38,693 bases of DNA, taken from NCBI GenBank assembly GCA_947644195.1, contig CANRZB010000038.1, positions 1-38,693 on the forward strand, read 5' to 3'. The stretch is from an uncultured Clostridium sp. Lineage in GTDB: Bacteria > Bacillota > Clostridia > Lachnospirales > Lachnospiraceae. Every line of letters starts with the position of its first letter. The stretch's first letter is position 1. The notes below the pieces were generated by a model. The model was given only the letters and a program-made list of their open reading frames with translations. It was not told the DNA's origin and ran no database searches. This document shows positions 1-34,824 of this stretch, one piece after another. The translations under genes were made by a program, and so were the position numbers.

Positions 1-355
1 CTACGATTTCATCAGGGGTTAGTTTGGGCTTCTGCTTCGATTCCACTGCAACCTGTGTCATGGCTTGCTCCATTTCGTGAAAGCGATCAATATACTTGAC
101 GGTAAACTCCGTCCCCTTGATTCCTGTCATTTTGTGGGCAATGAACTCGCAGCCTTTCTTCGTAATGTTGTAAGATTTTCTTTCCTCGCCTTTCCCGTCT
201 ATGTACGATGTTTGTTGGAAAAATTCAACCAAATCAATTTTGAGTTGGTTGAAATGCTGCTCATATGTACGGATACTTCTCAATAAGTTAGCATGTGGTT
301 TGCCAACCATCTCCGCTACCTCCAGAGATGTGATCGTCTGTTCAATTTTCTGCAT
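1..355 (-). CDS. Rha-family phage regulatory protein (antirepressor type), 3' end outside window
   Basis: The minus strand from the ATG at 355 is open to the window edge (118 codons). It starts MQKIEQTITSLEVAEMVGKP and continues with a pattern typical of the Rha family: an N-terminal DNA-binding-like part (HANLLRSIRTY), then SYNITKKGCEFIAHKMTG and VKYIDRFHEME. Rha-type proteins are phage regulators often classed with antirepressors. The start is fixed by AAAGGAG 8 bases upstream. It is the last gene of an RHH / antisense RNA / antirepressor module: the RHH gene lies at 474-662, and the leader between them carries a convergent promoter and a hairpin. Family assignment is from pattern recognition; the role as antirepressor is inferred from the context. 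The C-terminal part is not visible. Confidence 0.75.
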   Translation of the reverse strand, partial: MQKIEQTITSLEVAEMVGKPHANLLRSIRTYEQHFNQLKIDLVEFFQQTSYIDGKGEERKSYNITKKGCEFIAHKMTGIKGTEFTVKYIDRFHEMEQAMTQVAVESKQKPKLTPDEIV

Positions 356-439
356 AATAAAAAACTCCTTTCCAAAATTTGTTCTTGAAAGAAGTCTCGC
401 CATCTGATATGATAGATTTATCAGATGGGAAACCTCTGA
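353..439. repeat. 87-bp leader repeat, copy 1 (other copy 21424-21510)
   Basis: This block covers the antirepressor start codon, its ribosome-binding site and the leader hairpin. It matches 21424-21510 over 87 bases with only two differences (t/c at position 396 against 21467, g/t at 415 against 21486). The hairpin has CCATCTGATA at 400-409 and TATCAGATGG at 419-428, with an outer stem at 391-398 and 429-436 that includes wobble pairs. The same bases hold a plus-strand promoter. The genes on either side are not homologous to those flanking copy 2, so the leader is conserved or exchanged as its own unit. Confidence 0.9.
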
Positions 440-492
440 CAGCAACTAAGAATGGCTGGAACCGTCCAAAGTATCAGTCATTCTTATTTTTT
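420..492 (+). ncRNA. Predicted antisense RNA of RHH/antirepressor module A
   Basis: A plus-strand promoter is visible: TTGAAA at 385-390, a 17-base spacer and TATGAT at 408-413, giving a start near 420. A stem (448-458 with 475-485, one G-U pair) followed by six T at 487-492 forms an intrinsic terminator that overlaps the 3' end of the RHH gene. The resulting RNA of about 73 nt is fully complementary to the RHH-to-Rha intergenic mRNA. The arrangement is that of sar RNA between arc and ant in phage P22. Unlike sar, the predicted RNA does not reach the antirepressor Shine-Dalgarno (about 365), so a leader-folding or transcriptional interference mechanism is as likely as direct blocking. Prediction by eye only. 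Confidence 0.6.
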
Positions 493-662
493 AATTCCTC
501 ATAAACCTTTCTAATGCCTATTCGAATAATCTCCGCCTTTTTCTTTCCAGTTTCTTTGCAACAATACTCCAACATTTCAATATCTTTGTCCGACATTCTA
601 ATCTTCGTATCGTGTATTTTAGGATCTTTTGAAGGCGGTCTACCATGTGCTGGCGACACCAT
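474..662 (-). CDS. Ribbon-helix-helix (Arc/CopG-like) repressor, module A
   Basis: A 62-residue protein starting MVSPAHGRPPSKD, with a short beta strand (TKIRMS) and two helices (DKDIEMLEYCCKETG and KKAEIIRIGIRKVYEEL). This is the RHH pattern of Arc, Mnt and CopG, which bind DNA as dimers through the beta strand. The start at 662 is preferred over an upstream ATG at 695 because GGAAGGAG sits just before it and the upstream ATG lies within the operator region. Its promoter is covered by two 18-bp direct repeats (681-698 and 702-719), so autorepression is likely. The protein resembles the module B repressor (889-1080) in its MSP..GRP start and its SDKD helix. Downstream gene: Rha. Confidence 0.85.
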   Translation of the reverse strand: MVSPAHGRPPSKDPKIHDTKIRMSDKDIEMLEYCCKETGKKKAEIIRIGIRKVYEELKNKND

Positions 663-680
663 ATCATCTCCTTCCCATCT

Positions 681-726
681 TAATTGGTTGCACATTTATT
701 ATAATTGGTTGCACATTTAATGTCAA
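681..726 (-). promoter_or_regulatory. Promoter and operator pair of RHH module A
   Basis: On the minus strand, TTGACA (726-721), 17 bases, TATAAT (703-698) form a perfect consensus promoter. Two identical 18-bp copies of TAATTGGTTGCACATTTA (plus-strand reading, 681-698 and 702-719) sit 21 bp apart over the spacer and the start region. That is the expected place for the binding sites of the RHH protein encoded just downstream. The promoter is strong by sequence, so the module should be tightly dependent on its repressor. Confidence 0.8.
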
Positions 727-768
727 TAGCATATTTCCAAAATATTTAAATTTTTATAATATCCAATC

Positions 769-792
769 TCATTGGAAGGAAATTTTCTGCAT
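769..792 (-). pseudogene. 7-codon stub of a lost Rha-type antirepressor (module B)
   Basis: The minus strand reads ATG CAG AAA ATT TCC TTC CAA TGA from 792. The first four codons (MQKI) equal the start of the Rha gene at 355, and a GAGAGGAG ribosome-binding site precedes it. The frame ends after seven codons and module A's promoter starts about 43 bases further on. It is best read as an antirepressor gene deleted just after its start while the RHH gene, leader and antisense RNA promoter of the same module were kept. It could alternatively be a short leader peptide. Confidence 0.6.
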
Positions 793-848
793 AATAAAAA
801 CTCCTCTCAGTGTTTGACAACAACACCAAAGGGAGATATAATTGCTAT

Positions 849-920
849 ATCAACAGCCTTTGGTGTGTTGAGTGTTTAAGAGTAACCGCTACTTGTCCAG
901 AGCGTTGGTTGCTCTTATTT
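849..920 (+). ncRNA. Predicted antisense RNA of module B
   Basis: The plus strand carries a perfect promoter: TTGACA at 814-819, 17-base spacer, TATAAT at 837-842. A stem of AAGAGTAACC (878-887) with GGTTGCTCTT (907-916), followed by ATTT, gives a terminator whose loop contains the RHH stop codon. The predicted RNA is about 72 nt. The leader also forms a long hairpin (ACACCAAAGG 823-832 with CCTTTGGTGT 857-866, inner GATATA 835-840 with TATATC 846-851). Layout equals that of the three other modules, although the antirepressor here is reduced to a stub. Confidence 0.6.
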
Positions 921-1080
921 CATTATAGACCAATTCAATGCCTTTTCGGATAACAGCGACTTTTGTCATGCCTGTTTTTTCAATGCAAAACTTTAACTTT
1001 TCCATATCCTTATCAGACAATCGAAAACTTTCTCTATTTCCCTTAGGTTCCGCTGTTGGCCTGCCTGTTCTAGGCGACAA
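889..1080 (-). CDS. Ribbon-helix-helix repressor, module B
   Basis: A 63-residue RHH protein (MSPRTGRPTAEPKG start, RESFRLSDKDMEKLKFCIEKTG, MTKVAVIRKGIELVYNEI). The start codon is TTG at 1080, placed after GAAAGGAG; no ATG in frame fits. The N-terminal MSP.TGRP..EPKG pattern and the helices match the module A repressor, so they are paralogues with different operators. The promoter upstream holds two GTCATGAC palindromes. The downstream antirepressor is reduced to a stub, so this repressor may now only control itself or act on another target in trans. Confidence 0.85.
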   Translation of the reverse strand: MSPRTGRPTAEPKGNRESFRLSDKDMEKLKFCIEKTGMTKVAVIRKGIELVYNEIRATNALDK

Positions 1081-1098
1081 TTCATCATCTCCTTTCTT

Positions 1099-1140
1099 TT
1101 GTCATGACATAAGTATAAATTATGTCATGACAAAAGTCAA
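1099..1140 (-). promoter_or_regulatory. Promoter and palindromic operators of RHH module B
   Basis: On the minus strand, TTGACT (1140-1135), 17 bases, TATACT (1117-1112). Two palindromic cores GTCATGAC lie at 1101-1108 and 1124-1131, 23 bp apart, extended as TTGTCATGACATAA and its mirror. One overlaps the spacer and the other the start region. The operator sequence is unrelated to those of modules A, C and D. Confidence 0.8.
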
Positions 1141-1251
1141 GCGTTAATTAGAATATTTAGCCAAAAAAGAAGAGTGTTTGCTGCCCCTCTTTCATACCTA
1201 GTTTCTTATCATTCATCAAGGGAATTTCTAAAACTTAATTTTATCTAAAAT

Positions 1252-6655: not shown

Positions 6656-9600
6656 TCAGATATACAAAGGCTTCCCGAAGCGCTTCTTGTAATCCGAGTT
6701 TGCCCTGGTGGTTATTCTAACAATATCTCCGTCAGAGACACCCTCTACATACAAAGGCTGGCCGCCCTGTGAATTTGCCTGTAACCCATTTACCGCATTA
6801 ACCACCTGTGTTAGCACCGGAGCCAGTGCGTTAAAAACACCATCGGACACGGACTGGACGATCTGTGGGTTGTTGACAACGGCACTCTTGCCGCCAATCG
6901 TACCTACAAGCTCTGGTCCACTCTCACGTGCCAGGAAATATTGCCCTTGCTGCGGGAAGCCACCGGATGCGAAAGCTGCAGGCAATTTAATCTCCTTAAG
7001 ATCAAAACCAAATGTCTTACCGCCCATTTTAGGCACCCAATTAGGAATTTTTACGCTAATCTTATTAATTGCACCTATTATATACTTATTAATCCAATTA
7101 ATTATAGTCTTTATTGCTGACTTTATTGCATCAACATTTAAATAACCAAAAATAGTCTTACTCTTAATTGCATCCCAGGTATCCCGAATTCCTTCAATAG
7201 TCTTTTTTCCTTTTTGCTTTAGTGTTTTAGTCACTGTACCATCTTTAATTTTTCCCCAAACTTCTGCCGCAGCTTTGATTGTATTTTTTCCACTTTGTTT
7301 TAAAGTCTTTGTTACCTTACCGCTCTTAATAGCATCCCATGACTTTTTCACAGAATCAATGATATTCTTCCCTTTTTGCTCTAAGGTTTTAACTACTGTA
7401 CTGCTCTTAATATCATTCCATGCACCTTTTAATTTATCGAGAGCACCAGCAGCCTTTTCCTTGGCTTCCGCAATTAATGAGGAAGTTTTATCCTTTACTT
7501 TTTCCCAACCCTCATGGATCGTTGCTAAGGCGCCTTGCACTTTTCCTTTGGCAGATGCGACTAATTCTGCTGTTTTGCTCTTGATGGAATCCCATTTTTC
7601 TTTAACCTTATCAACAGTTTCATCAATTTTTCCTTTTATAGTCAATACAAGTTTATCTTTTTTATTCTCCCACCAATCTTTTACGCCCCCCCACCAATCT
7701 TCTACATCTACCCACCAGTCAGCCATACCCTGCGCCCATTCTTCAGGGCTATATGAAAATAGATCAGTAAATTTAAATTCATACCTATATTCTTTCATAT
7801 CCTCTGGCGATATCTGATCTTGAATCCATTCCCCTATTTTTTTGCCCAAAGTGAAGCCTCCAGCAAGCGCAATAGTTACCGCTGCTATTTTCAGGGATAA
7901 TTTAGTATTTCCCGTAAAGGTTTTTGCTGCCATAAACGCAGTAATAGCTGCCAATATTGAATCCGTCCAGTCTCCTTTATTTGCCAACTTTAAAGTTGCG
8001 GCACCTAGGCCTACGCCGATAGCAACTTTTCCCAGGGTAAGATTTTTTCCTGCAAGGGCTAACGTTATTGCATCTGTGATCTTTCCCAATACCCCAGTTA
8101 ATGCTAAACCAGCAAATAAATCTACAATAGCAGTTTCTAAAGGGGCTTTTTCATGGATCTTGGCTATCGCATCACAAACCGCACCAAAAGCCTCGTCTGC
8201 CATTTCTACAAAATCCCAGGCAACTTCGCCCCATTTAATGCCTGCGATTAAATCTCCTATTGCATTTCCAACCTCAATCCACTCTACTGTTTCTAACGCC
8301 GTTGTAATTGTTCCTGTTATTCCCTTGATCGTATTGCTTATGCTTTCTCCGAGGGTTTCCCAGCCAGTTAATCCGGTCTTCTTATCAACAGTGTTCATGC
8401 TCTTAAAAAATTTGTTAATACCATCCCCGATCTTAGTTCCCAAAGAAGCCCATGTTTCTTGATCGGATACTAGGGTATAAAAGGCTGTTGCAAGAGATTT
8501 CGCCAACTTCCCTAGCTTCCATCCAATATCTCCCGTATTAATTTCTCCGATAAAATCGGCAATCGCCTGCCCTACATCTTCCCACTCTACCGTTTCTAAC
8601 GCCACAGCCAATGATTCAGTAATGCCCGAAATTCCATCCGACAGGGTCTTCCCTAATTCCTGCCAGCCATTTAACCCGGTCTGCTTATTGACCTTCCCCA
8701 TGGTTTTAAAAAAATCATTAATACCCTGTCCTAAGGCGCTGCCCAGTTTATCAAACTTAAAAGTGGTAACCGCTCCAAACGCCGTTTCAATTGCGGCTCT
8801 TAACTTAGACGCAATTGACTTGAAATAGCTCTGGAGCACCCCGGTATCTATCGCAGAATTGAGGGAGGTAGCTAACGATTTCCCTAGATTTACCCAATTT
8901 ACCTTATCAAAAAAATGTGTTTCTGCGTCGAAAAAGGCTTTCAGCGACTTTCCGATCGCTGTACCCAGGCCAGCCCAATTTAGCTTTTCCACAAATCCAT
9001 TTACCCCGGTCGCCAGCATATTAGCGATTTTTTTCAATCCGGCAGCGAATTTATCCACATTCTTATTAACCCAAGAGATCCCTTTATTGAGCCATCCGGC
9101 AATCGCAGACCCTATGTCAGAACCATCCCCACTTGTCCAGGCGTTCTTAAAGAGCTTGGTTAGCTTGTCAGCGAACTTTTCAGCATCATTCTGCATTTCT
9201 TTGAATTTTTTGTTCCAAACCTTTTGATAATCTGACATAACATCATCTAAGGCATCCGTTAATGCGCTAGTAATATTTGCTCCAGAGTCTTCGTCTTCTT
9301 TGTCCTTTTTCTTAGAATCGTTAGTCGTGATAACGTTAAGTTCATCAAAACCCATAAGCTGCTTTGATAACTTTTTGACGGAATCTGTAGTATCATCTAC
9401 TGCTGTGGAAGCGCTCTCTGCATCATCCATTAAATCAGAAAGGCCACTATTGTCGCCCCCTGTATTTTTAAATAACTCTGTATTTACACCGAGAAGACTA
9501 CCTACGTATTCAACTAATCTCCGCACAGCTATAGCAAATGCATTTAAGTACGGAAGAGTTTTTGCTACAATTGGCAAAAATATATTTCCTATTTGACGAG

Positions 9601-11032
9601 AAATACTGCTAAAATTATTTTTTAACAACCTTAACTGATTTGCTGGCTGATTAATCGTACTGGACATGTCGCCCCAGGCATATTTCGTACTTTCCAGTAA
9701 AACAATCGTCCTTAAAAGCGCCTTATCGTTCTGCCCCAATGCATTTATATTAGCCTTGATTCCCAATTCATGTAGTTTCTGTTTCAGATTTGCATTTCGG
9801 ATATTAACACCATACTTATCCCAAGTTCTACTCATACCTGTAAGCCCACTTGCCATATCTTCCCACGCACTTTTGAAATCAATATTTTTAACAGAAGCAA
9901 GATCAGCTCCTATTTCCGTCAAAACCCTTGATAGATCCGTAGCTGTGCCACTAGCTACCCCCATGGAACTGGACATTTGAGCAAACATTGCTTGATAATT
10001 CATCAATTTATCCGGGTCCATACCCAGGTTAGGAAGCCCAGTAGAAATCAATTCTCCATTATCCTGCACCTCGAAACCCGTCATTTTAGCTGTCAATTTC
10101 TCTGCTTCATTTTGAAAAGATTCCGCATACTGCCTAGCTGATCGGAAGCCGAGTTCTTTCCACTGACTTAGATCAGCATTTGAAGCCACCTGTCCAAAAC
10201 CTGCTTGAAAGTAGTTATATGTTTCAATGTAGTCCATTGCAGATCCTATTGATTTACCAAACACGTCACAAATACGTTTAATGGACCATATTTTTGCATA
10301 GAGCATGCCCAGCTTAGAAATAAATGACGCTGTACTCTTAGAAGCATTTTTGGATTGTAAAGCAAAGCCTTTTAATCTAAAAATTGCATCTCTAGCACCA
10401 TTCCCAAAATGCGACATTCCTCCAGCAAGCCTGGATAATGCACCTTGACACTTAAACATATCGCCCACTGCTTTTGACATTCCGTTCGAAAGATTTCTAA
10501 GCCCACCGGCATGCTTTGCCAAATTTGCCATGGCATTAGTCATATTAATTAAATTATTGGATACAGACGGGGCCCTAGACAACTCTGCCATCATATCCCG
10601 TATTACCGTAGTTAGCTTCGGGATATTATCAATAGCTTGTGTCGAACTCTTATATCCTAATTTGGATATGCCACTCGCCAACTGCCCGATCTTGTCCGCT
10701 CCTTCACTGACATTCCCCATGCTCGAAAGTGCCTTTGAAATATTCGTAATTGCTGTAGCTGCCCGGTTTAATTCTCCTTTACGGATATTAGACAGTTTTT
10801 CAATTCCTTTTGCCATTCTCGTAAAATCGGCAGTTTTAACCTCTCCTAATCCCTTGGCGGCCTTGGAGAAATTCTGAATACTAAGAGACAGGTTATTAAG
10901 ATTGCCGACACTGATCCCATCAACAGTAGACCGCAGTTTTATCATCTTCTCGACCAGAATATCCAACTGTTTGCTGGCACTTCTGGCAGACGCATCCACT
11001 TTTATACTTAAACTATCAACAGTAGCTGACAT
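6656..11032 (-). CDS. Phage tail tape measure protein, 1458 aa
   Basis: The length, helical and repetitive make-up, and place after the tail chaperones identify a tape measure protein, which sets tail length and helps genome delivery through the membrane. The N-terminus (to about 240) has repeated KLSxxxxxxIxxLS-type helices. At about 760-940 a 101-residue segment (GxGINxFFKxM, KTGLxGWxxLG, ALETVEW) occurs twice in tandem. Residues about 970-1075 are hydrophobic and probably membrane-active. Then come W-K repeats of 27-29 residues (WDAIKSGKVTKTLKQSGK type). The C-terminus (GGFPQQGQYFLARESGPELV) is the usual conserved end of Firmicute tape measures. ATG at 11032 follows AGAGGTGG. It is complete, yet no distal tail gene follows. 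Confidence 0.95.
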   Translation of the reverse strand: MSATVDSLSIKVDASARSASKQLDILVEKMIKLRSTVDGISVGNLNNLSLSIQNFSKAAKGLGEVKTADFTRMAKGIEKLSNIRKGELNRAATAITNISKALSSMGNVSEGADKIGQLASGISKLGYKSSTQAIDNIPKLTTVIRDMMAELSRAPSVSNNLINMTNAMANLAKHAGGLRNLSNGMSKAVGDMFKCQGALSRLAGGMSHFGNGARDAIFRLKGFALQSKNASKSTASFISKLGMLYAKIWSIKRICDVFGKSIGSAMDYIETYNYFQAGFGQVASNADLSQWKELGFRSARQYAESFQNEAEKLTAKMTGFEVQDNGELISTGLPNLGMDPDKLMNYQAMFAQMSSSMGVASGTATDLSRVLTEIGADLASVKNIDFKSAWEDMASGLTGMSRTWDKYGVNIRNANLKQKLHELGIKANINALGQNDKALLRTIVLLESTKYAWGDMSSTINQPANQLRLLKNNFSSISRQIGNIFLPIVAKTLPYLNAFAIAVRRLVEYVGSLLGVNTELFKNTGGDNSGLSDLMDDAESASTAVDDTTDSVKKLSKQLMGFDELNVITTNDSKKKDKEDEDSGANITSALTDALDDVMSDYQKVWNKKFKEMQNDAEKFADKLTKLFKNAWTSGDGSDIGSAIAGWLNKGISWVNKNVDKFAAGLKKIANMLATGVNGFVEKLNWAGLGTAIGKSLKAFFDAETHFFDKVNWVNLGKSLATSLNSAIDTGVLQSYFKSIASKLRAAIETAFGAVTTFKFDKLGSALGQGINDFFKTMGKVNKQTGLNGWQELGKTLSDGISGITESLAVALETVEWEDVGQAIADFIGEINTGDIGWKLGKLAKSLATAFYTLVSDQETWASLGTKIGDGINKFFKSMNTVDKKTGLTGWETLGESISNTIKGITGTITTALETVEWIEVGNAIGDLIAGIKWGEVAWDFVEMADEAFGAVCDAIAKIHEKAPLETAIVDLFAGLALTGVLGKITDAITLALAGKNLTLGKVAIGVGLGAATLKLANKGDWTDSILAAITAFMAAKTFTGNTKLSLKIAAVTIALAGGFTLGKKIGEWIQDQISPEDMKEYRYEFKFTDLFSYSPEEWAQGMADWWVDVEDWWGGVKDWWENKKDKLVLTIKGKIDETVDKVKEKWDSIKSKTAELVASAKGKVQGALATIHEGWEKVKDKTSSLIAEAKEKAAGALDKLKGAWNDIKSSTVVKTLEQKGKNIIDSVKKSWDAIKSGKVTKTLKQSGKNTIKAAAEVWGKIKDGTVTKTLKQKGKKTIEGIRDTWDAIKSKTIFGYLNVDAIKSAIKTIINWINKYIIGAINKISVKIPNWVPKMGGKTFGFDLKEIKLPAAFASGGFPQQGQYFLARESGPELVGTIGGKSAVVNNPQIVQSVSDGVFNALAPVLTQVVNAVNGLQANSQGGQPLYVEGVSDGDIVRITTRANSDYKKRFGKPLYI
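8215..8745. repeat. 303-bp in-frame tandem duplication inside the tape measure gene
   Basis: The segment around CCACTCTAC(T/C)GTTTCTAACGCC occurs at 8279 and 8582, exactly 303 bp apart (101 codons). Protein-level identity extends over most of the unit, while the DNA has drifted, so the duplication is not recent. Such duplications change tail length. Confidence 0.75.
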
Positions 11033-14855: not shown

Positions 14856-15923
14856 TTAATAGCACTTGATCTGATACGTCTCGTCCATTCTCTCGAAAGA
14901 CGGCAGGACGATCTCAGATACAGTAGTCTTTGTCTGCTCCGGGTCATGGGACGTAGTTACCATTACGGTAATGCCAGTATCTCCAACTAAATGTACATCT
15001 GCATCTGCGGACTGCATGCCGGTTCTTTCCTCCGGGGTACATCCATACCAGGTATTTCCCAAAGCTCCGGTCGGAATCAGGGTCGCAAATCCATCCGGGA
15101 AGAATGTAGAAGCTGTACCGCTTTCGTCCTTGTATTTTTTGGTATACACAATGATGCCGATGTTAAGTTCCTCGCTAAACAGTTCTTTAATCTTTTTATC
15201 TGTAACAAAGACCACCGGCGTTTCACTCTTGGAGAGGATGGCATTTTTAATCGCCTTATTTTTCTTCAAAAGGCTCATTGTCTTCTTAGAAATAATCATG
15301 ATAGAAGGCGTTTCCCCGGTTTCTCCCTCCACGGCATCAATGCCTGCAGCAACGTCTTCCATAGGATCAGAATTTTCCGTATCATCCCACTTGCTGGTAC
15401 CAGCCAGTTCCAGGAAATTCTTAGCCTCATAGCTACCGCTTGGATCATAGTTATAAGCGTAAGTAGTATCATTTGCCTGTATGGAGATCTTCGGATGCCC
15501 GTCTCTTGCCGCCAAAAGCTGCATAATCATCCGTTCTGGCACTACTTCTGCTCCAGCGATCAGATTATTTGCATCATCATAAATTCGGTCAATAACCTCT
15601 TTTGCATAGGGATCCGTACTATCCTCTACACGCAGGATCTCCTGTTCGTCTGCCTCTTTCACGATATATGATTCACGGAAAAAAGCCATTTCGGTTTCGT
15701 CCATCTTAAAACCGGATCGACTACGGATCGTAGACCTTGCGTCAAAGTTGGACGGCGCCAGGGAAATCGGCAATCCCTTGGCTGTCTTGATCCATTTCAG
15801 ATCTAACCCCATTTTTTTCTTGGCCGGAAATAATCCCTTTCCAAGATACTGCTGCTTGTTGCTAGCAGCGGTCAAATGCCGAATCGCAATTGCCGCCGCC
15901 GAAAAGATATCTCTAATTTTCAT
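14856..15923 (-). CDS. Major capsid protein, lambda gpE type, 355 aa
   Basis: Contains LGKGLFPAKKKMGLDLKWIK, DARSTIRSRSGFKMDETEMA, FFRESYIVKEADEQEI and, near the end, NTWYGCTPEERTGMQSADAD. These blocks are characteristic of the phage major capsid protein E family (HK97 fold). It follows scaffold and decoration genes and precedes connectors. No prohead protease gene precedes it, consistent with a scaffold-dependent system. ATG at 15923 follows AGGAGGACG. Confidence 0.9.
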   Translation of the reverse strand: MKIRDIFSAAAIAIRHLTAASNKQQYLGKGLFPAKKKMGLDLKWIKTAKGLPISLAPSNFDARSTIRSRSGFKMDETEMAFFRESYIVKEADEQEILRVEDSTDPYAKEVIDRIYDDANNLIAGAEVVPERMIMQLLAARDGHPKISIQANDTTYAYNYDPSGSYEAKNFLELAGTSKWDDTENSDPMEDVAAGIDAVEGETGETPSIMIISKKTMSLLKKNKAIKNAILSKSETPVVFVTDKKIKELFSEELNIGIIVYTKKYKDESGTASTFFPDGFATLIPTGALGNTWYGCTPEERTGMQSADADVHLVGDTGITVMVTTSHDPEQTKTTVSEIVLPSFERMDETYQIKCY

Positions 15924-16940: not shown

Positions 16941-17701
16941 TCTCCTATTTGACGCATAGGTGCAATATACTTAGACCGTTATTATCCGGTCTGGCTAACA
17001 ACTAAAATAAAAATTTCAAACTTCTCTTAATCTATACTTTATTTCCGCCTGCTTTCTCGCATTAACCGCATCTTCTATCTTGTCATATCTCCCAAGAGCA
17101 ATATTTCTTCCAAACACAGTTATAGTTGCCGCCCATTTACTTCTCGCCTTATCGTAATACACTCCATTATGCCCGCTTTTATTGTTCTTTTTTAGAGAAA
17201 TATTCAATATATTGTCTCTATGTTTTACTAATCTAATGTTTTCTTTCCTATTGTCTAGCTTATTTCTATTTATATGATCTCTTTCCATGCTATCTGGACA
17301 ATCAATAATTAAAGTATGAAACATTAAATGCTTCTTTTTCCTTACAGTATATGCATATCCAGTAGTTGACAAATTCCAACAATATTTCTTTAATTTTTCC
17401 CAGTCATCCAAATCACACAGCATAATTTGCTCAGTATTTCTTATTTTGACATAAACTGTATTTCCAACAATGTTGTATTCATTTTGAAACTTTGCATCGC
17501 TTCTCATACAACCACAAGATTTACTTTTTCCATGAATCAACTTATACTCGGAAACATTTCTTTTTGTTCCACATAAACATTCACATTGCCAGATCCGTTC
17601 TCTGTTCTTCTTACCAGCAAAGGAAATAACTCTCCACCGCGTATACTGTTTTCCTGACAAATCTATCATATAAATTTCCGTCCTTCTAATCTCCTATTTG
17701 A
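16941..17701. mobile_element. HNH endonuclease insertion bounded by 12-bp direct repeats
   Basis: TCTCCTATTTGA occurs at 16941-16952 and again at 17690-17701, 749 bp apart, and the space between is filled by an HNH endonuclease gene. A stem (AGACCG 16973-16978 with CGGTCT 16987-16992) lies at the inner left end. The repeats look like the ends of a homing-type insertion or of a recombination join. Excising one repeat and the insert leaves an open minus-strand reading of about 30 codons ending THELSEQRKKAY-stop at 16902. There is too little sequence around the gene for a group I intron core. Confidence 0.6.
17016..17669 (-). CDS. HNH homing endonuclease with AP2-like C-terminus, 217 aa
   Basis: N-terminal part with a Cys cluster (WQCECLCGTKRNVS and KSCGCMRS, about 28-58), as in NUMOD-type modules. 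The central HNH motif is visible as MERDHINRNKLDNRKENIRL (about 129-148; D-H pair and N residues). The C-terminus SGHNGVYYDKARSKWAATIT, then GRYDKIEDAVNARKQAEIKY, is an AP2-like DNA-binding domain. This combination is typical of free-standing phage homing endonucleases. It lies where a minor capsid (MuF) gene normally follows the portal gene. ATG at 17669 follows AGAAGGA. Probably mobile by homing; 12-bp repeats flank it. Confidence 0.9.
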   Translation of the reverse strand: MIDLSGKQYTRWRVISFAGKKNRERIWQCECLCGTKRNVSEYKLIHGKSKSCGCMRSDAKFQNEYNIVGNTVYVKIRNTEQIMLCDLDDWEKLKKYCWNLSTTGYAYTVRKKKHLMFHTLIIDCPDSMERDHINRNKLDNRKENIRLVKHRDNILNISLKKNNKSGHNGVYYDKARSKWAATITVFGRNIALGRYDKIEDAVNARKQAEIKYRLREV

Positions 17702-17754: not shown

Positions 17755-19164
17755 TCAAACTATATTTTCCTTAACTTTATTTACATTCTGCTTATTTGTG
17801 TTCACATAACTTTCTTTGCTATCAATGGCAATCTGTTGCGGATCGCTCCACAAATCACACGTTTTAATCGCATCACCCAGTTCAATCCCGCACAATAACA
17901 AAATTTGTAACACCTGTGCTTTAACCAACATATTATCTGTCTTTGATCTGGTAATTTTTATTTCAATATCTGAAAGTTTCAAATTGGCAATATCTTTTAT
18001 TCTTAAAATAGAAAGTGCCACTCTAAGAAATTGTCTTTCTGATTTTTTAAATGTTGGCTCATTAACCATTGCTCTTTGTTGTGCAAAATCCCAACCGTTC
18101 CGCAAATACACAGCCTGCCCGGTATCGCCCCCGGTATTCTGTTCCCGGCTTGGCATCCCCTCCACGGTCAATATGTTATCGTATACGTCATCCTTGGCAA
18201 TCTGCGTTTGCTCCTGGTTCAGCTCCGATGTCATATTTTCCACATCTGCCTTCACTCCCTGCTGGGTACATTTCACATTGATTGCTCCAAGATCCAGCAT
18301 TTCCAGAAAAGTATCCTCATCAATTTTGCAATTGACAAATTTCATCAACGCTTGCACAAACTGCTCAATTCCATTCATCCGATCGGATTGAATTTTATTA
18401 AGCTGGTCGAGCATAGTAATAACAATCTCCAAATCCGAAAGCCTACGCTCGTTGTTGGGATATTCAATGACCGGAATCATCCTGATTCCATTCTTGCCGC
18501 TATCAACAATCTTTCCATTCTTGATTTCAAACCACTCTCTATCCGTATAAATAAAGTAAAAGGTCTGACCCTCTTCATCCTTGCGAATCTGGCAGGAAAA
18601 CATTGCTCTATGCCCGGAATTAGAGGAATAAACTACAAAGGTATCCCGGGGATCTTCACAACTCATACCGAAAGGTGCTTCATCCAGATATAAGTTTGCA
18701 TCTGCATCATTCCAGACAAAGCGATATGCTGTGCCGCTGATGCTTCGCCACCTGCCAATCTCAATATCGCAGGCTCCCTTATCCTCAGAATCCATCATGG
18801 CATTAAGCTGATTGACAGAATCCCCAACGGAATCTACAGCCCGCTTCTGTACATACTGGATCGGCTCTGCAAACATCTCCGCCGTCTTATGTTCGACGAT
18901 TTCAAAAGCGTGGTTCTCCACCGTCTTGTTATTGATATCCTTACGGACTTTCTTCACACGGTAAAGAATCGGCTGATCGCCCCGGTAGTACCGATCCAGA
19001 TAGTCGATTTCCCGACGGTTCTGCCAGTGCTTCGATAAAGCCTTACCAAGTTCCTGTACCACGTTGGAAGCATCAATCTTCTTAGCATTGGTGTAGATTA
19101 CCTTGCGTCCAAATTCCTTGTGACAAACGTCTACAAACGATTTTCTGTTTTTGATCCCTAACAT
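17755..19164 (-). CDS. Phage portal protein (SPP1 gp6-like), 469 aa
   Basis: Recognisable blocks include RREIDYLDRYYRGDQPILYR, FEIVEHKTAEMFAEPIQYVQ, WNDADANLYLDEAPFGMSCE, EYPNNERRLSDLEIVITMLD and QNTGGDTGQAVYLRNGWDFA, which together are typical of the SPP1 gp6-like portal family. The portal forms the ring through which the terminase packages DNA. ATG at 19164 follows AAAGGAGTTG. It is separated from terminase by about 3.5 kb of regulatory genes, an unusual arrangement, and has its own upstream terminator and repeat array. Confidence 0.9.
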   Translation of the reverse strand: MLGIKNRKSFVDVCHKEFGRKVIYTNAKKIDASNVVQELGKALSKHWQNRREIDYLDRYYRGDQPILYRVKKVRKDINNKTVENHAFEIVEHKTAEMFAEPIQYVQKRAVDSVGDSVNQLNAMMDSEDKGACDIEIGRWRSISGTAYRFVWNDADANLYLDEAPFGMSCEDPRDTFVVYSSNSGHRAMFSCQIRKDEEGQTFYFIYTDREWFEIKNGKIVDSGKNGIRMIPVIEYPNNERRLSDLEIVITMLDQLNKIQSDRMNGIEQFVQALMKFVNCKIDEDTFLEMLDLGAINVKCTQQGVKADVENMTSELNQEQTQIAKDDVYDNILTVEGMPSREQNTGGDTGQAVYLRNGWDFAQQRAMVNEPTFKKSERQFLRVALSILRIKDIANLKLSDIEIKITRSKTDNMLVKAQVLQILLLCGIELGDAIKTCDLWSDPQQIAIDSKESYVNTNKQNVNKVKENIV

Positions 19165-19690: not shown

Positions 19691-19816
19691 CTATAATCCC
19701 GCTTCGTTCTCTCTTAGAATTTCCAGATGCGTTTTTACAACAGTAAATATCTTCATCAGCACGGTCGGGTTCTTAATTTTCTCCACCATTTCTACGATCA
19801 TCTGCTCATAATTCAT
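19691..19816 (-). CDS. Small helical protein coupled to antirepressor C, 41 aa
   Basis: ATG at 19816 overlaps the stop codon of the antirepressor gene (ATGA), and AAAGGAAG lies upstream inside that gene. It reads MNYEQMIVEMVEKIKNPTVL then MKIFTVVKTHLEILRENEAG, a single predicted amphipathic helix pair. Function unknown; the stop-start overlap indicates translation coupled to the antirepressor, so it may form part of that module. Confidence 0.6.
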   Translation of the reverse strand: MNYEQMIVEMVEKIKNPTVLMKIFTVVKTHLEILRENEAGL

Positions 19817-20613
19817 CGGCACACACTTCCTTTCTCGCTCTCAAAACAATCCAGTACCTGGTCCGCTATGTCCTGCAGTTCCGGGAAGTACTCCACCAGA
19901 TCAATGGCATAGGTCGGCGCAGATCCCTCCCTGTCACGGTAGATCCCCTCTGCTTCGTCCAGGTCGTAGCACTTCTCACACTCTTCCAGGATGATATGGT
20001 ACAGTTCCCGGAGTTCCATGTTCCTGTCACGACGGATGCGCCAGATCCGGTTACGGTTCTTCTGATACCAGGTATTCCTCTTGGGGGTCAGCCGGGTAAG
20101 CAGATGTATCTTGGGCTTGTCGACTTTCTCCAGGGCTTGTACACGTTTGTGGAGGTCGTTGAGTTTCAGATCAATCAACGTAAATTTGTTTTCCTCCAGC
20201 TCCTTTAGTCGCTTATGTAAATCGTTCAGTTTCATATCGACCAGCATACCATCATCTGGCTTCCGTTCCACAACTGGCTGTTGCTGTCTGAAATAGCTGT
20301 TGACGAGTTGCCGCTGGACAGACCATGATAGATCATCTGTAAAGGATTTGACGATCATAAGATATCCAGATTCTGTTATGAGGGTCAAACCATTTGGAGC
20401 AGTGATATTATAGTCATGCTTTGCTTCGTACGAATTTCGTACAATATAATCAATGCCCTCAATAAAATGCTTTTTGTTTGTGTTAAAGTTTCTCCTTGCA
20501 GTGCCTAGCTTGCGCTGATGCACTATGTCAATATCCTTAAAAGTTACCACTCTTTGTCCATTCCACGTTTTAATTTGTGGCATTTGGTTAATCTTTTCCT
20601 CAATATCGTTCAT
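19813..20613 (-). CDS. ORF6N-domain antirepressor, module C, 266 aa
   Basis: The N-terminal about 110 residues form an ORF6N domain (NGQRVVTFKDIDIVHQRKLG, FIEGIDYIV, then TESGYLMIVKSFTDDLSWSV and QRQLVNSYFRQQQ). A linker with two tandem 20-residue heptad repeats follows (MLVDMKLNDLHKRLKELEEN and TLIDLKLNDLHKRVQALEK), then a basic C-terminal domain (TWYQKNRNRIWRIRRDRNME) ending in an acidic helix. ORF6N proteins are phage regulators, often called antirepressors. The start at 20613 follows AGAGGAG. It shares the QRQLVNSYFRQQQ block with the shorter module D protein, but its C-terminal domain is extra. It lies behind RHH gene C and an antisense RNA unit. Confidence 0.8.
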   Translation of the reverse strand: MNDIEEKINQMPQIKTWNGQRVVTFKDIDIVHQRKLGTARRNFNTNKKHFIEGIDYIVRNSYEAKHDYNITAPNGLTLITESGYLMIVKSFTDDLSWSVQRQLVNSYFRQQQPVVERKPDDGMLVDMKLNDLHKRLKELEENKFTLIDLKLNDLHKRVQALEKVDKPKIHLLTRLTPKRNTWYQKNRNRIWRIRRDRNMELRELYHIILEECEKCYDLDEAEGIYRDREGSAPTYAIDLVEYFPELQDIADQVLDCFESEKGSVCR

Positions 20614-20645
20614 AAACAAAAACTCCTCTCATGAAATTTGATTTT

Positions 20646-20687
20646 CCACAAGAGGTATGTTATAGTAGCTATAACAATCCTCTGTGG
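20646..20687 (-). promoter_or_regulatory. Long leader hairpin of module C
   Basis: CCACAAGAGG (20646-20655) pairs with CCTCTGTGG (20679-20687, one bulge) and TGTTATAG (20658-20665) pairs with CTATAACA (20669-20676) around TAG. It lies upstream of the antirepressor ribosome-binding site and overlaps the -10 box of the antisense RNA promoter. Confidence 0.75.
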
Positions 20688-20743
20688 AACGTTGAAAATA
20701 AAGTATCGTTTTGATTGGTAGTCGGGCGGTACTTTATTTTTTT
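20673..20743 (+). ncRNA. Predicted antisense RNA of module C
   Basis: Promoter TTGATT (20638-20643), 17 bases, TATAGT (20661-20666) on the plus strand. Terminator AAAATAAAGTA (20695-20705) with TACTTTATTTT (20730-20740) followed by TTT, overlapping the RHH stop codon. The expected RNA is about 71 nt and antisense to the leader between RHH gene C and antirepressor C. Layout as in modules A, B and D. Confidence 0.55.
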
Positions 20744-20910
20744 GCTTTTCGATATTCACTTTCAATACCACGTCTTACAACCTCTGATTTTTTAATATTT
20801 AAAATCTCGGCTGTTTCTTCCAACTTGTTATACGTTCCTTTGTCAATCCTTGTTCTAAGCATTATATCTTTTGGATTGTCCTTGATTTTTTGCCCTTTTA
20901 AAGGCGACAT
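20734..20910 (-). CDS. Ribbon-helix-helix repressor, module C
   Basis: A 58-residue protein, MSPLKGQKIKDNPKDIMLRT then RIDKGTYNKLEETAEILNIK and KSEVVRRGIESEYRKAKK. It has the RHH layout: beta strand IMLRTRI, helix TYNKLEETAEILN, turn IKKSE and helix VVRRGIESEYRK. The ATG at 20910 lies seven bases after GGAGG; a longer TTG-started frame from 20928 would put the start inside the operator. It should bind the TGTAGCTACA-type operators over its own promoter. The antirepressor at 19813-20613 follows. Confidence 0.85.
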   Translation of the reverse strand: MSPLKGQKIKDNPKDIMLRTRIDKGTYNKLEETAEILNIKKSEVVRRGIESEYRKAKK

Positions 20911-20926: not shown

Positions 20927-20974
20927 AAAATGTAGCTACATTTTAATAATATAATTGTTGCTACATTTTGTCAA
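20927..20974 (-). promoter_or_regulatory. Promoter and operators of RHH module C
   Basis: Minus strand TTGACA (20974-20969), 17 bases, TATTAT (20951-20946). A perfect palindrome AAAATGTAGCTACATTTT lies at 20927-20944 and a related half (GTTGCTACATTTT) at 20957-20969. Operator sequence is specific to this module. Confidence 0.8.
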
Positions 20975-20994: not shown

Positions 20995-21426
20995 TTACGC
21001 AACTGCAACGCTTAGCTTCCAGTCTATGATTTCTTCAAGGGTAAGTTGGGAACACTGTTCCACAACTGGTAGCTGTTGCTGTCTGAAATAACTGTTGACG
21101 AGTTGCCTTTGGACTGCCCATGATAGATCGTCTGTAAATACCTTAACAATCATCAGATAACCACTCTCCGTAAAGAGATATGTCTTAATATTGGGATTCC
21201 CAACGATTTTTTCGTTGGGGGAATATCGTTCCCCTAACTCTTTTCTCGTAAGTTCAAAATAATCTGTTCCAAGCACAAAATGCTTCTTATACTTCTGAAA
21301 GGCTTTCTTTGCTGTATCAGTCTTTTTCATATGTACTCTGTCAATATCTTTTAACGTGACAACCCTCTGTCCGTCATACTCCCGTATCTGCATTTCTGTG
21401 TTTTCAATGGTTACAATTTCGCTCAT
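20995..21426 (-). CDS. Short ORF6N-domain antirepressor, module D, 143 aa
   Basis: MSEIVTIENTEMQIREYDGQ then RVVTLKDIDRVHMKKTDTAK, YKKHFVLGTDYFEL, TESGYLMIVKVFTDDLSWAV, QRQLVNSYFRQQQ and a short end (LTLEEIIDWKLSVAVA). The ORF6N domain is complete, but the second domain present in module C is missing, so it may be a natural short form or a truncated gene. ATG at 21426 follows AAAGGAG in the 87-bp leader shared with module A. The protein is not homologous over its full length to the Rha protein that follows the same leader in module A. Confidence 0.8.
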   Translation of the reverse strand: MSEIVTIENTEMQIREYDGQRVVTLKDIDRVHMKKTDTAKKAFQKYKKHFVLGTDYFELTRKELGERYSPNEKIVGNPNIKTYLFTESGYLMIVKVFTDDLSWAVQRQLVNSYFRQQQLPVVEQCSQLTLEEIIDWKLSVAVA

Positions 21427-21510
21427 AATAAAAAACTCCTTTCCAAAATTTGTTCTTGAAAGAAGCCTCGCCATCTGATATGATATATTTATCAGATGGG
21501 AAACCTCTGA
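21424..21510. repeat. 87-bp leader repeat, copy 2 (other copy 353-439)
   Basis: Two differences from copy 1 in 87 bases. Includes the antirepressor ATG, ribosome-binding site, plus-strand promoter (TTGAAA 21456-21461, TATGAT 21479-21484) and hairpin (CCATCTGATA 21471-21480, TATCAGATGG 21490-21499, outer stem 21462-21469 with 21500-21507). Confidence 0.9.
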
Positions 21511-21560
21511 AACAGATTAAGGGTAAGCACACTCTCCAAAGTTACTGCTTACTCTTTTTT
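21491..21560 (+). ncRNA. Predicted antisense RNA of module D
   Basis: Transcribed from TTGAAA (21456-21461), 17 bases, TATGAT (21479-21484). Terminator AAGGGTAAGCA (21519-21529) with TGCTTACTCTT (21546-21556, one wobble pair) and a T-run to 21560, overlapping the RHH stop codon. About 70 nt. The loop holds TCCAAAGT, as does the terminator loop of module A. Confidence 0.6.
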
Positions 21561-21752
21561 GTTGCCATTTTGTAGGATTTCCTTGATTTCGATAATCCCC
21601 TGCAAGATTTTGTCCTGCTTATCTGCCCGGATATCTCCATCAATCAATCTTCGGATGTAATCATTCTTGCTTATTCCGAGTTCTTTTGCCTTTTCGCCGA
21701 TGAAGTCCAATTGTTCTTCCGTCAGCCTTAATGTGAAGGTTTTAATGCTCAA
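21549..21752 (-). CDS. Ribbon-helix-helix repressor, module D
   Basis: A 67-residue protein with RHH layout: strand KTFTLRLT, helix EEQLDFIGEKAKELG, turn ISKNDYI and helix RRLIDGDIRADKQDKI, with a C-terminal helix IIEIKEILQN. The TTG at 21752, placed after AAAGGGGG, is chosen as start because the alternative ATG at 21782 lies in the operator repeats and in modules B and C the start has the same distance from the ribosome-binding site. It is less similar to A-C than A is to B. Confidence 0.8.
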   Translation of the reverse strand: MSIKTFTLRLTEEQLDFIGEKAKELGISKNDYIRRLIDGDIRADKQDKILQGIIEIKEILQNGNKKE

Positions 21753-21774
21753 TTTATCATCCCCCTTTCTACCA

Positions 21775-21833
21775 GAAGTCATATTAAAGTCATTTGACGT
21801 TTTTAATATAACATGAAGTCAAATTAAAGTCAA
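21775..21833 (-). promoter_or_regulatory. Promoter and operators of RHH module D
   Basis: Minus strand TTGACT (21833-21828), 17 bases, TATATT (21810-21805). Two 18-bp direct repeats GAAGTCA(A/T)ATTAAAGTCA lie at 21775-21792 and 21815-21832, 40 bp apart, one over the -35 side and one downstream of the start. Each contains AAGTCA twice. Confidence 0.8.
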
Positions 21834-22734: not shown

Positions 22735-24393
22735 CTAATACGGTCGCTCACACGCTTCGCAATCCGCATACAATCCACCCTGCACTTCCATCATCAACTG
22801 AGTTATCCCATCGGCAGCATCATCATGTTCATTCTTTCCAATCTGGACAAACATGGTCAGCTCGTCCATAGCATTGTGATATTCTTCATCTCGCTTATTC
22901 GCCGCCAAAAACTTAAATCTCCGCTTTACATCGGGAGCATATTGAATAATCTTTGCCAGTTTGCTCATGGTGTTGGGAGCCTTGCTAGAAGTAATGCTGC
23001 AGGAATAATTCTGTTCTCTCAACTGTCTGTCTATATCATCCGCATATTCATCTCCGCCATTATTTCCCTCAAAATGCATCGTCTGCGGCTTATGATACAG
23101 CGTCTTTCCAACTACAATAGGCTGCGTCACTGTCTTATCGCCCCGGTTAAAAATCCAGTCAGCAATGTAAATAAACCCATCATCATATTCATATCCCCAT
23201 GGCATGGACAAACTGTCCCCTCCGCCCCAAGCCACATCACAGGCAGTTAATTTTCGAATCAAACCGCTTTCCGGCGGCAGTACGCCATTGTAAGTCTGTA
23301 GTGCATCCTCCGGGAATAGCAAGCCTTCACGGACAAAAGGACGCTGTTGGAACTTCGCCTCCCACTCATTCTTATCGAGACGCTCTTTCATTTTCAAATA
23401 ATGATCCGTGGAAAACCCCAGTCCGTAGTCGTATATAAAATTAGATTCATTCTTCTCGTTCAGTGCCGGAATTTTACGGAACCGATACCGAGGATCGTCC
23501 TTATTCTCCTTCTCTACCCTGCCCAAGGGATCCATCACATTCCATCTGGTGCCTACCATTAATTCCTTGGTGCCATCATTTTTCCGATCGACTAATACGT
23601 TTAGGTAGTCCTGATATCTCCCTTCCAATCGTGAAGGAGAAAGGCTTTCCTTCCGATCACGAACCATATCGTCTACATACAGATAACCGTCCGAAGAAAT
23701 ATCGACTGCACCAGTCCAGGTTCCATCAATACCCCGGCAGGTAAGTGTAGCAAACCGATCCGGGTCATTCAACGTAATTTCTCTTTTCTCCGCTGACTTT
23801 TTTTGCAAGAACGTTTCTGGAAAAATGTCTCGGAAATGATAAATCGTTTTATCCTCTGGCGCATCCAGCTCCATGATATTAAGCGCCTCTGTATAAAATC
23901 CATCTGCCAGATCCCCGGAATGGCCCGACATGGCACTATGGCTGTTTGGCCTGCGCCCCATTATCCATGCTAGAAAGAAGATACAAATTGTCGATTTACC
24001 AGTCCTTGGCGGCATAGACAGTCCGTAAAAATCCAGCTTTCCATCTTCCAAATCCTGCAAATCATCCACTACCACTTTCAGCGTGCGTCTGCGGGGCATA
24101 TAGAATCTTTTCCTAGGATCCCTGTCTTTTTCCATGTAATACAAGAAATCTTCAAAGGAATACGGTGCCAGCATCAAAGTAGCCTTCCAGTACAAATTTG
24201 CAAAATCAACACTGTTTTTTTTACGGCTCTGTTCAGCAGCAATTCTCTGAACTGCCTTCGCCTGCTCCAATGCATAAGGCAAATCGTCAGACTTTTCACT
24301 GATTGCCATATCCAACAACGCACTGGCATACTTGATATTCGTGAGATCTTTCCGGTAAAGTCCCTGGATGATTTTTTTATTCTTTTCCGACAT
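22735..24393 (-). CDS. Terminase large subunit, 552 aa
   Basis: The ATPase that packages DNA into the head, with nuclease activity that cuts the concatemer. Walker A is PPRTGKST (about 128-135), Walker B LYVDDMV (about 237-243), followed by the motor coupling segment GTRWNVMDPLGRVE. The C-terminal nuclease domain begins around TACDVAWGGGDSLSMPWGYE with the first acidic residue, and HDDAADGITQLMMEVQGG near the end gives the later acidic pair. The start at 24393 is chosen over the GTG at 24405, which lies on the ribosome-binding site. It overlaps the upstream gene end by 17 bases. Confidence 0.93.
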   Translation of the reverse strand: MSEKNKKIIQGLYRKDLTNIKYASALLDMAISEKSDDLPYALEQAKAVQRIAAEQSRKKNSVDFANLYWKATLMLAPYSFEDFLYYMEKDRDPRKRFYMPRRRTLKVVVDDLQDLEDGKLDFYGLSMPPRTGKSTICIFFLAWIMGRRPNSHSAMSGHSGDLADGFYTEALNIMELDAPEDKTIYHFRDIFPETFLQKKSAEKREITLNDPDRFATLTCRGIDGTWTGAVDISSDGYLYVDDMVRDRKESLSPSRLEGRYQDYLNVLVDRKNDGTKELMVGTRWNVMDPLGRVEKENKDDPRYRFRKIPALNEKNESNFIYDYGLGFSTDHYLKMKERLDKNEWEAKFQQRPFVREGLLFPEDALQTYNGVLPPESGLIRKLTACDVAWGGGDSLSMPWGYEYDDGFIYIADWIFNRGDKTVTQPIVVGKTLYHKPQTMHFEGNNGGDEYADDIDRQLREQNYSCSITSSKAPNTMSKLAKIIQYAPDVKRRFKFLAANKRDEEYHNAMDELTMFVQIGKNEHDDAADGITQLMMEVQGGLYADCEACERPY

Positions 24394-24702: not shown

Positions 24703-24787
24703 TCGGAGAGGATGGATTCGAACCATCAACCTGCTCTCATTGTTCTTAGGGTGTACACCGCTACTTTGCCAATTAAGCTACTCTCCG
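24703..24787 (-). tRNA. tRNA-like sequence with intact acceptor, D and T arms but no normal anticodon arm
   Basis: On the minus strand 7-bp acceptor halves CGGAGAG (24787-24781) and CTCTCCG (24710-24704) are perfect. They are followed by a canonical D-arm (GCTTAATTGGCAAAGTA) and a T-arm (GATGG-TTCGAAT-CCATC), with discriminator A. Total length is 85 nt, as in class II tRNAs. The central part (GCGGTGTACACCCTAAG and 17 more bases) does not form a five-pair anticodon stem; a T33 followed by ACA is formally possible. CCA is not encoded. It may be a decayed tRNA, an unusual phage tRNA, or a tRNA-like leader, since it ends about 20 bases before the start of the next gene. Confidence 0.4.
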
Positions 24788-34734: not shown

Positions 34735-34824
34735 ACTAAACCTCATTTCTGCGAGCGTTCCGCATCGTCTTATTCCATGACACTGGTATCATAAACAGAA
34801 CTCTTCCCATTTTCAATCTCCAAG

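Follow-up and report, generated by a model that had tools for sequence, protein, structure and literature searches.

Ribbon-helix-helix genes with predicted antisense RNAs form a widespread phage cassette, represented by four modules in a Lachnospiraceae prophage

Introduction

The arc-sar-ant unit of phage P22 has so far been the textbook one-off for control of an antirepressor by a ribbon-helix-helix (RHH) repressor together with an antisense RNA (asRNA). In its immI region the RHH gene comes first, an asRNA of about 70 nt has its terminator over the RHH stop, the antirepressor gene is next, and the unit is a moron within the late region (PMC2629481; here and below, PMC numbers stand for excerpts of the papers concerned). 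Here, we analyzed a stretch of 38,693 bases from an uncultured Clostridium sp. of the Lachnospiraceae (contig CANRZB010000038.1, assembly GCA_947644195.1), which is the entire contig and is called the window below. It contains four modules, A to D, in which an RHH gene is followed by a leader with a predicted asRNA and, in A, C, and D, by an antirepressor-type gene.

Several other described systems share parts of this arrangement. In plasmid pMV158, the RHH repressor CopG and the antisense RNAII control repB, the next gene of the operon (PMC4485353, PMC5703833), which resembles the arrangement predicted for our modules, with a putative RHH autorepressor and an antisense RNA set over a downstream gene. 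Unlike our predicted two-hairpin RNAs, however, RNAII is 48 nt long with one hairpin and is transcribed from a promoter within the start of the repB coding sequence (PMC5703833, PMC4485353), and the cargo of pMV158 is a replication initiator, whereas here it is of the Rha, ORF6N, Bro-N, or AntA type. In plasmid pT181, a pre-emptor keeps away the 5' arm of stem-loop IV, which holds the ribosome-binding site and mainly terminates transcription; in pSK41, the induced stem-loop hides the ribosome-binding site and acts on translation only (PMC5703833). Both resemble what we propose for our modules in that antisense binding to an upstream leader segment permits a ribosome-binding-site stem-loop, the counterpart of the pre-emptor being the leader segment that we call arm1, and their antisense RNAs are 83 to 87 nt long with stem-loops (PMC5703833). 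They differ in serving plasmid rep control without an RHH gene, and RNAI of pSK41 is found ∼100 nt ahead of the initiation region. In phages P1 and P7, the antisense RNA c4 controls the antirepressor gene ant and is the basis of heteroimmunity, but c4 binds around the ribosome-binding site, and the excerpted text mentions no RHH gene (PMC12197685). The same text, a 2025 review of phage small RNAs, covers sar, c4, OOP, and others, and its excerpts mention neither Firmicutes nor names beginning with Clostridi- (PMC12197685). A full-text search of open-licence papers found no description of the cassette analyzed here.

Results and Discussion

Four modules with predicted antisense RNAs

A first-pass annotation of the window, made from its letters, had proposed four plus-strand sigma-70 promoters with a 17-nt spacer, each giving an RNA of about 70 nt that stops at the end of an RHH gene, as well as four different operators. 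All four promoters were found where they had been placed, and the parts of each module are as follows.

Module A
2..355, minus strand: cargo, an Rha-type phage regulator (antirepressor class; Pfam Phage_pRha, E 8e-27), incomplete because the contig ends there
365..373, minus strand: Shine-Dalgarno (SD) region, GGAAAGGAG on the mRNA, from the sequence
387..394, minus strand: anti-SD, CUUCUUUC on the mRNA, within arm2, from the sequence and the fold of the asRNA-free stretch
385..413, plus strand: antisense promoter TTGAAA-17-TATGAT (-35 at 385-390, -10 at 408-413)
400..428, either strand: core inverted repeat CCATCTGATA...TATCAGATGG, from the sequence and folds
420..494, plus strand: asRNA with two hairpins and a terminator, start and end predicted only
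474..662, minus strand: RHH repressor gene (phrog_876 "transcriptional repressor," E 1.5e-13)
698..726, minus strand: operon promoter TTGACA-17-TATAAT, overlapping two copies of the direct repeat TAAATGTGCAACCA, likely the RHH operator

Module B
769..792, minus strand: cargo remnant of 7 codons, MQKISFQ*, an open reading frame
814..842, plus strand: antisense promoter TTGACA-17-TATAAT, 12/12 (-35 at 814-819, -10 at 837-842)
849..925, plus strand: predicted asRNA
889..1080, minus strand: RHH repressor gene with a TTG start
1112..1140, minus strand: operon promoter TTGACT-17-TATACT with the inverted repeat CTTTTGTCATGACA

Module C
19813..20613, minus strand: cargo, an ORF6N-domain antirepressor-type protein (Pfam ORF6N, E 5e-12)
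20638..20666, plus strand: antisense promoter TTGATT-17-TATAGT (-35 at 20638-20643, -10 at 20661-20666)
20673..20749, plus strand: predicted asRNA
20734..20910, minus strand: RHH repressor gene
20946..20974, minus strand: operon promoter TTGACA-17-TATTAT, with the inverted repeat AAAATGTAGCTACATTTT immediately downstream

Module D
20995..21426, minus strand: cargo, an ORF6N-domain antirepressor-type protein (Pfam ORF6N, E 3e-17)
21456..21484, plus strand: antisense promoter TTGAAA-17-TATGAT (-35 at 21456-21461, -10 at 21479-21484)
21491..21564, plus strand: predicted asRNA
21549..21782, minus strand: RHH gene of another RHH subfamily (Pfam NikA-like E 1e-7, HicB 3e-4, RHH_1 0.002)
21805..21833, minus strand: operon promoter TTGACT-17-TATATT with the direct repeats TGACTTTAAT

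The proposed RNA length is borne out by prediction: the asRNAs would start near 420, 849, 20673, and 21491 and measure ∼74 to 77 nt, the 3' stem of the terminator overlapping the RHH gene end in all four modules. Each RHH gene has its own strong operon promoter with a 17-nt spacer (A, 12; B, 10; C, 11; and D, 10 of 12), and the repeats over or beside these promoters differ between all four modules, in keeping with the proposed four operators, if operators they are. The same gene order had been claimed for every module. This is correct for A, C, and D, where the RHH gene lies directly upstream of the Rha or ORF6N gene, but not for B, whose 7-codon remnant begins like the Rha protein of module A (MQKIEQ), the module that comes next. 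The terminator hairpins were confirmed. A T-tract had been credited to A, C, and D, and the terminator tail of B is U-rich too (6/9).

In module A, the inverted repeat forms arm2 and arm1 of an mRNA hairpin and flanks the antisense -10, and the anti-SD overlaps the complement of the antisense -35. The leaders of A and D are 98% identical across 87 bases; they are copies, and the four modules are thus not independent. The asRNAs of A and D may cross-react, given a perfect complementarity of 20 nt.

A cassette of phages, satellites, and prophages

To look beyond the window, we searched a family set of 397 genomes by leader DNA, by the Pfam profiles ORF6N and Rha, and by R1, a covariance model made from ten modules on the mRNA strand. 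For an independent set, viral contigs were searched with three RHH proteins only, and the best 80 of 155 relatives were kept. At the RHH 3' end of these 80 viral loci, R1 matched 57 at E<=1e-3, 67 at E<=0.05, and 74 at E<=1; four of the remaining loci were matched elsewhere and two not at all. An antisense promoter (at least 9/12) together with a terminator was present in 66 of the 80, with a spacer of exactly 17 nt in 63 and a median predicted asRNA length of 71 nt, and 8 of the 80 had two or three modules inside their 2-kb flanks (R1, E<=0.05). A tblastn search with one RHH protein reached 43 phage and 4 plasmid records. In all 14 of the phage records examined, we found an antisense promoter (9 to 12 of 12, spacer of 17 nt in 13; a scan without shuffle control) and a terminator giving an RNA of 67 to 80 nt. 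R1 matched 11 of these 14 (E<=1, and below 0.004 in ten cases) and missed the three satellite phages Javan751, Javan337, and Javan747. The 12 of these records that are annotated (two have no annotation) show no RNA annotation at the site. The next gene is annotated as Rha in Funu2 and phiPaco and as a KilAC antirepressor in phiCDIF1296T, and an antirepressor follows after one or two small genes in phiJH1301-1, Javan119, Javan362, and Javan190.

The layout for which the first-pass annotation proposed a covariance search in other genomes is present at the sequence level in many relatives, and plus-strand promoter and terminator are kept there. Its emphasis on four versions in one prophage has to be revised, since the modules belong to a large family that occurs in phages, satellites, and prophages, often in tandem. 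Judged from sequence, the cassette is real, conserved, and widespread.

In the family set, modules were accepted in at least 14 of the 397 genomes (G000, G016, G027, G054, G107, G188, G242, G262, G268, G273, G302, G306, G337, and G381; the RHH gene of G306 is truncated where its contig ends). The true number may be higher because, under strict filters, no more than eight candidates were scored for each genome. Weak R1 matches (E<=1) occurred in 150 genomes and are mostly chance. Of 19 covariance matches inspected, we judged 11 true, 5 false (L129, a gap-pgk leader, and L133, L134, L136, and L137), and 3 unclear (L099, L107, and L153); among the false and unclear ones, only L107 (E 0.017) is in the 93-row alignment described below, and it was removed from the SD test as it has no start. 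The strong ORF6N matches of the family search (E below ∼1e-28) were mostly left aside, and 20 weaker places were examined. Module A DNA had no match in the phage collection, and the exact inverted repeat had none in the viral contigs; relatives emerged only via protein and covariance-model searches. Most weak matches of the leader DNA in the family were ribosome-binding-site or chance matches. A scan of genome contigs with a poor pattern returned 2 loci.

R1 had no match at arc-ant of P22, the Rfam sar model had none in window positions 300-1150 (modules A and B) even at E 10, and at gathering cut-offs no Rfam family lay over any module in the window and 20 relative loci. The skipping-rope (L182:306-402) and GP20-b (L237:3985-4041) RNAs were considered as the module and rejected, as both are positioned close to modules but not within them.

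Two observations concern individual records. In Javan53 and Javan527 (L246 and L248), the next gene begins 171 to 172 nt beyond the RHH stop, and an extra inverted repeat, ∼130 to 170 nt from that stop, lies between this gene and the antisense promoter; the gap is of comparable length in the satellites of L249, L252, and L253. Record JAMPFJ010000009.1 (L160, 81834 bases) is titled a Bacteroidales metagenome-assembled genome, has an equal-sized counterpart in the family set (G188:C51), and is probably a mislabelled or mixed bin.

Strand tests of the predicted antisense RNA

Promoters were tested in 66 non-redundant viral leaders picked by the RHH protein alone, with dinucleotide shuffles as the control. 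An antisense promoter with a 17-nt spacer reached at least 9/12 in 55 leaders, at least 10/12 in 40 (61%), and at least 11/12 in 22, compared to 14.4%, 2.2%, and 0% of shuffles at the same thresholds. For 45 of the 55, the distance from the RHH stop to the -10 is 61 to 76 nt. When spacers of 16 to 18 nt were allowed, promoters of at least 10/12 were found on the antisense strand in 62% of the leaders and on the sense strand in 13.6%.

The stems were examined in a 93-row alignment from 83 chosen sources, from which near-copies and matches judged false had been excluded. Pairing across the 93 modules was 84.9%, compared to 52.2% when shuffled, and the covariation score was 0.711, compared to 0.177 for shuffled alignments and at most 0.17 for slid controls; the terminator stem showed covariation in every pair. 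A G-U pair corresponds to an A-C mismatch on the complementary strand, and the number of wobble pairs therefore reveals which strand uses a stem. Among 86 non-redundant modules, wobble cells in the terminator stem numbered 62 for the antisense strand and 7 for the mRNA, whereas those of the arms lean to the mRNA (67:38 and 31:15). Since both R1 and the alignment were made on the mRNA strand, the terminator result runs against that bias, whereas the arm result may benefit from it.

Folding energies and loops were compared in the 78 modules of the SD test below. Folding favors the antisense strand for the terminator region in 77 of 78 modules and the mRNA for the SD region in 67 of 78, and a U-run follows the terminator stem in 67 of 78 modules on the antisense strand and in none on the mRNA. 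Terminator loops with UUGG or UGUGG on either strand occur in 46 of 78 modules versus 14.3 expected (antisense in 38, mRNA strand only in 8). YUNR-type U-turn loops speed antisense pairing; we counted the YUNR motif in 66 of 78 loops without a control and did not use it as support. By these strand tests, the terminator hairpin belongs to the predicted asRNA, and it is very likely that an asRNA is made from the predicted promoters.

That no asRNA exists, the plus-strand promoter and hairpin being by-products of DNA operators or mRNA-strand structures, is very improbable, for although the antisense -10 lies inside an inverted repeat and the arms fold equally on both strands, the fixed 17-nt spacer and position, the U-run score of 67 to 0, and the wobble ratio of 62:7 would otherwise have no reason.

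Shine-Dalgarno access in the leader

Of 86 non-redundant modules entered into the SD test, 8 were dropped for want of a promoter or start and 78 were tested. In all 78 the predicted asRNA leaves the SD uncovered, the distance from its end to the cargo start having a median of 59 nt and a minimum of 44. With the asRNA bound, the mean unpaired probability of the SD was 0.11, compared to 0.38 in shuffles of the same stretch and 0.38 in the whole leader without asRNA (n=78; Wilcoxon p ∼1e-12 for both comparisons); in 135 ordinary genes from the same loci it was 0.50. The viral subset of 60 modules gave 0.09 bound and 0.37 free. From the free to the bound state, the value falls from 0.62 to 0.01 in module A and from 0.57 to 0.01 in module D. 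Upstream pairing of the SD is predicted in 75 of 78 modules. For 70 of the 75, at least half of the bases it pairs with can also pair with arm1, so that the leader offers two competing pairings, arm1:arm2 or arm2:SD.

A likely double lock and its rivals

Given that the asRNA leaves the SD uncovered, it probably acts via leader refolding and not by masking the SD. We consider it likely that the module is a double lock on a moron gene of the phage late region, usually an antirepressor. As the first lock, the RHH protein would repress the strong promoter of its own operon; we infer this from the arrangement, in which the operator repeats overlap or adjoin the promoter, and from the CopG/Arc class of the protein. 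As the second, the opposite-strand promoter in the leader would yield a short terminated asRNA of ∼70 to 75 nt, complementary to arm1 and to the last part of the RHH message, to both of which it would bind. When the asRNA is absent, arm1:arm2 would form and the SD could be free; when it sits on arm1, arm2 would be freed to fold onto the SD, in many modules as a hairpin followed by a U-run, blocking translation and perhaps also ending transcription. The cargo, presumably active as an antirepressor, would then be expressed only if its mRNA outruns the asRNA, for example after induction or infection has lifted RHH repression.

The closed, OFF fold is the well-supported half of this switch in the folding model. 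Confidence in the full mechanism is limited by the weakly predicted ON state. Of 78 modules, only 32 have an open SD (>0.5) in the free mRNA, and in 35 the SD is closed whether or not the asRNA is bound, which means that equilibrium folding predicts the ON state poorly. That state may depend on folding during transcription or on ribosome occupancy of the RHH gene. A number of further results also weigh against the double lock. The SD is still open with asRNA bound in 7 of 78 modules; the effect is modest in module B (unpaired probability 0.62 to 0.20), and in module C (0.33 to 0.23) it ranks no better than its own shuffles. In fixed columns of the 10-sequence alignment, no pair of the SD helix changed on both sides, and RNAalifold gave this alignment only -0.42 kcal/mol. 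The rows of the 93-row alignment had been fitted to the structure of the model; for the arms, the wobble bias is mild, and folding energies favor neither strand (40 versus 37). Finally, the 8 dropped modules stand outside the SD test, and the asRNA start sites come from the promoters only.

Possible, though doubtful as the whole account, is transcription attenuation as in pT181 and pIP501, in which the arm2:SD hairpin would be a terminator and the asRNA would stop the mRNA before the cargo. At least 5 U among the 9 nt past the SD were counted in 50 of 78 modules (without an ordinary-gene control for the U-run), and stem-loop IV of pT181, with its ribosome-binding site, mainly terminates; against this, 28 of 78 modules have no such U-run, and the similar stem-loop of pSK41 affects translation only (PMC5703833). 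A translation block and attenuation could coexist.

It is unlikely that the asRNA works in the manner of P22 sar or pMV158 RNAII, with direct pairing to the mRNA that obstructs the ribosome or leads to decay by RNase III, the arm and SD pairings being secondary. The layout and RNA length are the same as for sar, RHH-antisense pairs are known from pMV158 (PMC4485353, PMC5703833), and the mRNA-asRNA duplex would be perfect across 74 to 77 bp. Yet sar reaches to one base before the ant ATG, whereas our predicted asRNAs stay at least 44 nt from the cargo start in every module tested, and the SD is sequestered in the uncovered stretch beyond what shuffles and ordinary genes show.

With leader refolding as the preferred account, the likeness to arc-sar-ant that the first-pass annotation had drawn can be divided. 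It stands for gene order and RNA length and fails for geometry and for module B, which has no antirepressor. In P22, sar spans the whole leader and Psar lies inside ant (in the P22 record, L255, sar is at 1522-1591, ant starts at 1592, and Psar is at 1598-1626); in the window, the leader itself contains the antisense promoter, and the SD would stay free of asRNA. The family further differs from P22 in its tandem repeats and its occurrence in other phyla. The cassette is P22-like in logic, unlike P22 in geometry, and probably attenuation-like in mechanism.

RHH proteins and cargo genes

By sequence profile, the RHH proteins match phrog_876 in 67 of 67 cases and Pfam RHH_1 in 21 of 67; single-sequence Pfam searches with the RHH proteins of modules A and C found no RHH match. 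Compared against structures, the RHH family profile had CopG of pMV158 as its best natural match (E 0.0027), behind two designed proteins.

The first cargo gene encodes at least 40 amino acids (aa) in 71 of 78 modules and fewer in seven, including B. Pfam domains in the 71 were Bro-N (11), Rha (8), ORF6N (7), and AntA (3). Among second genes, of which 28 of 34 were scanned, the counts per family, with one protein able to hold two, were KilAC 10, Bro-N 9, AntA 5, Rha 3, ORF6N 1, P22_AR_N 1, and HNH_3 3.

Two further kinds of protein recur in or beside the modules. One, of ∼65 to 75 aa with a MARIKDVLKK-like start, often lies between the leader and an antirepressor or HNH gene, and truncated copies of it mark a tandem array in G107. 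Its examples are as follows.

L067:9242-9439
L237:2296-2505
L238:2289-2501
L222:2291-2494
L195:2306-2500
L230:2307-2504

Proteins of the other kind have an RFGRLTV/W-C-C-CG-type start and are found beside or inside modules, at 17016-17669 of the window (start MIDLSGKQYTRWRV...WQCECLCG) and among the cargo or second genes of L176, L224, L237, and L238.

Possible roles of the cassette

A tentative possibility is that RHH gene and asRNA together are an exchangeable immunity unit, with tandem arrays as a genetic memory of antirepressor types across phages and satellites. Cargo-less cassettes such as module B and the remnants in the G107 array might then be retained to silence matching antirepressors in trans, namely, those of incoming or co-resident phages. 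The logic of arc-sar-ant appears, with another leader geometry and probably an attenuation switch like those of plasmids, in phages of Lachnospiraceae, Clostridioides, Streptococcus (including satellites), and Fusobacterium. If our reading is true, these modules would add a large family to the antisense RNAs of phages that has not been catalogued, would allow testable predictions of which prophages remain silent and which induce one another, and would supply many natural loop variants for studies of antisense recognition specificity. The cassette could also help to explain the quiet state of these prophages, whose antirepressor genes are apparently kept silent.

Prophage context of the window

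The first-pass annotation had placed the modules in a Firmicute prophage, which fits both the phage structural genes found here and a family set that includes Hominisplanchenecus faecis (Lachnospiraceae). The phage genes are on the minus strand and run toward position 1 in this order:

22735-24393, minus strand: probable terminase (Terminase_6C match weak, slightly below the cut-off)
17755-19164, minus strand: SPP1-type portal
14856-15923, minus strand: major head protein
6656-11032, minus strand: tape measure

Modules D and C sit in the interval from the probable terminase to the portal, and B and A are found where the late genes end. A tRNA-Arg gene (anticodon CCT, 24703-24787) lies directly upstream of the probable terminase and may be an attachment site or a phage-borne tRNA. 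From ∼30 to 38.6 kb, the window contains host-like genes, one of which (32968-34746) encodes a protein with a C_GCAxxG_C_C domain fused with GGDEF and EAL domains.

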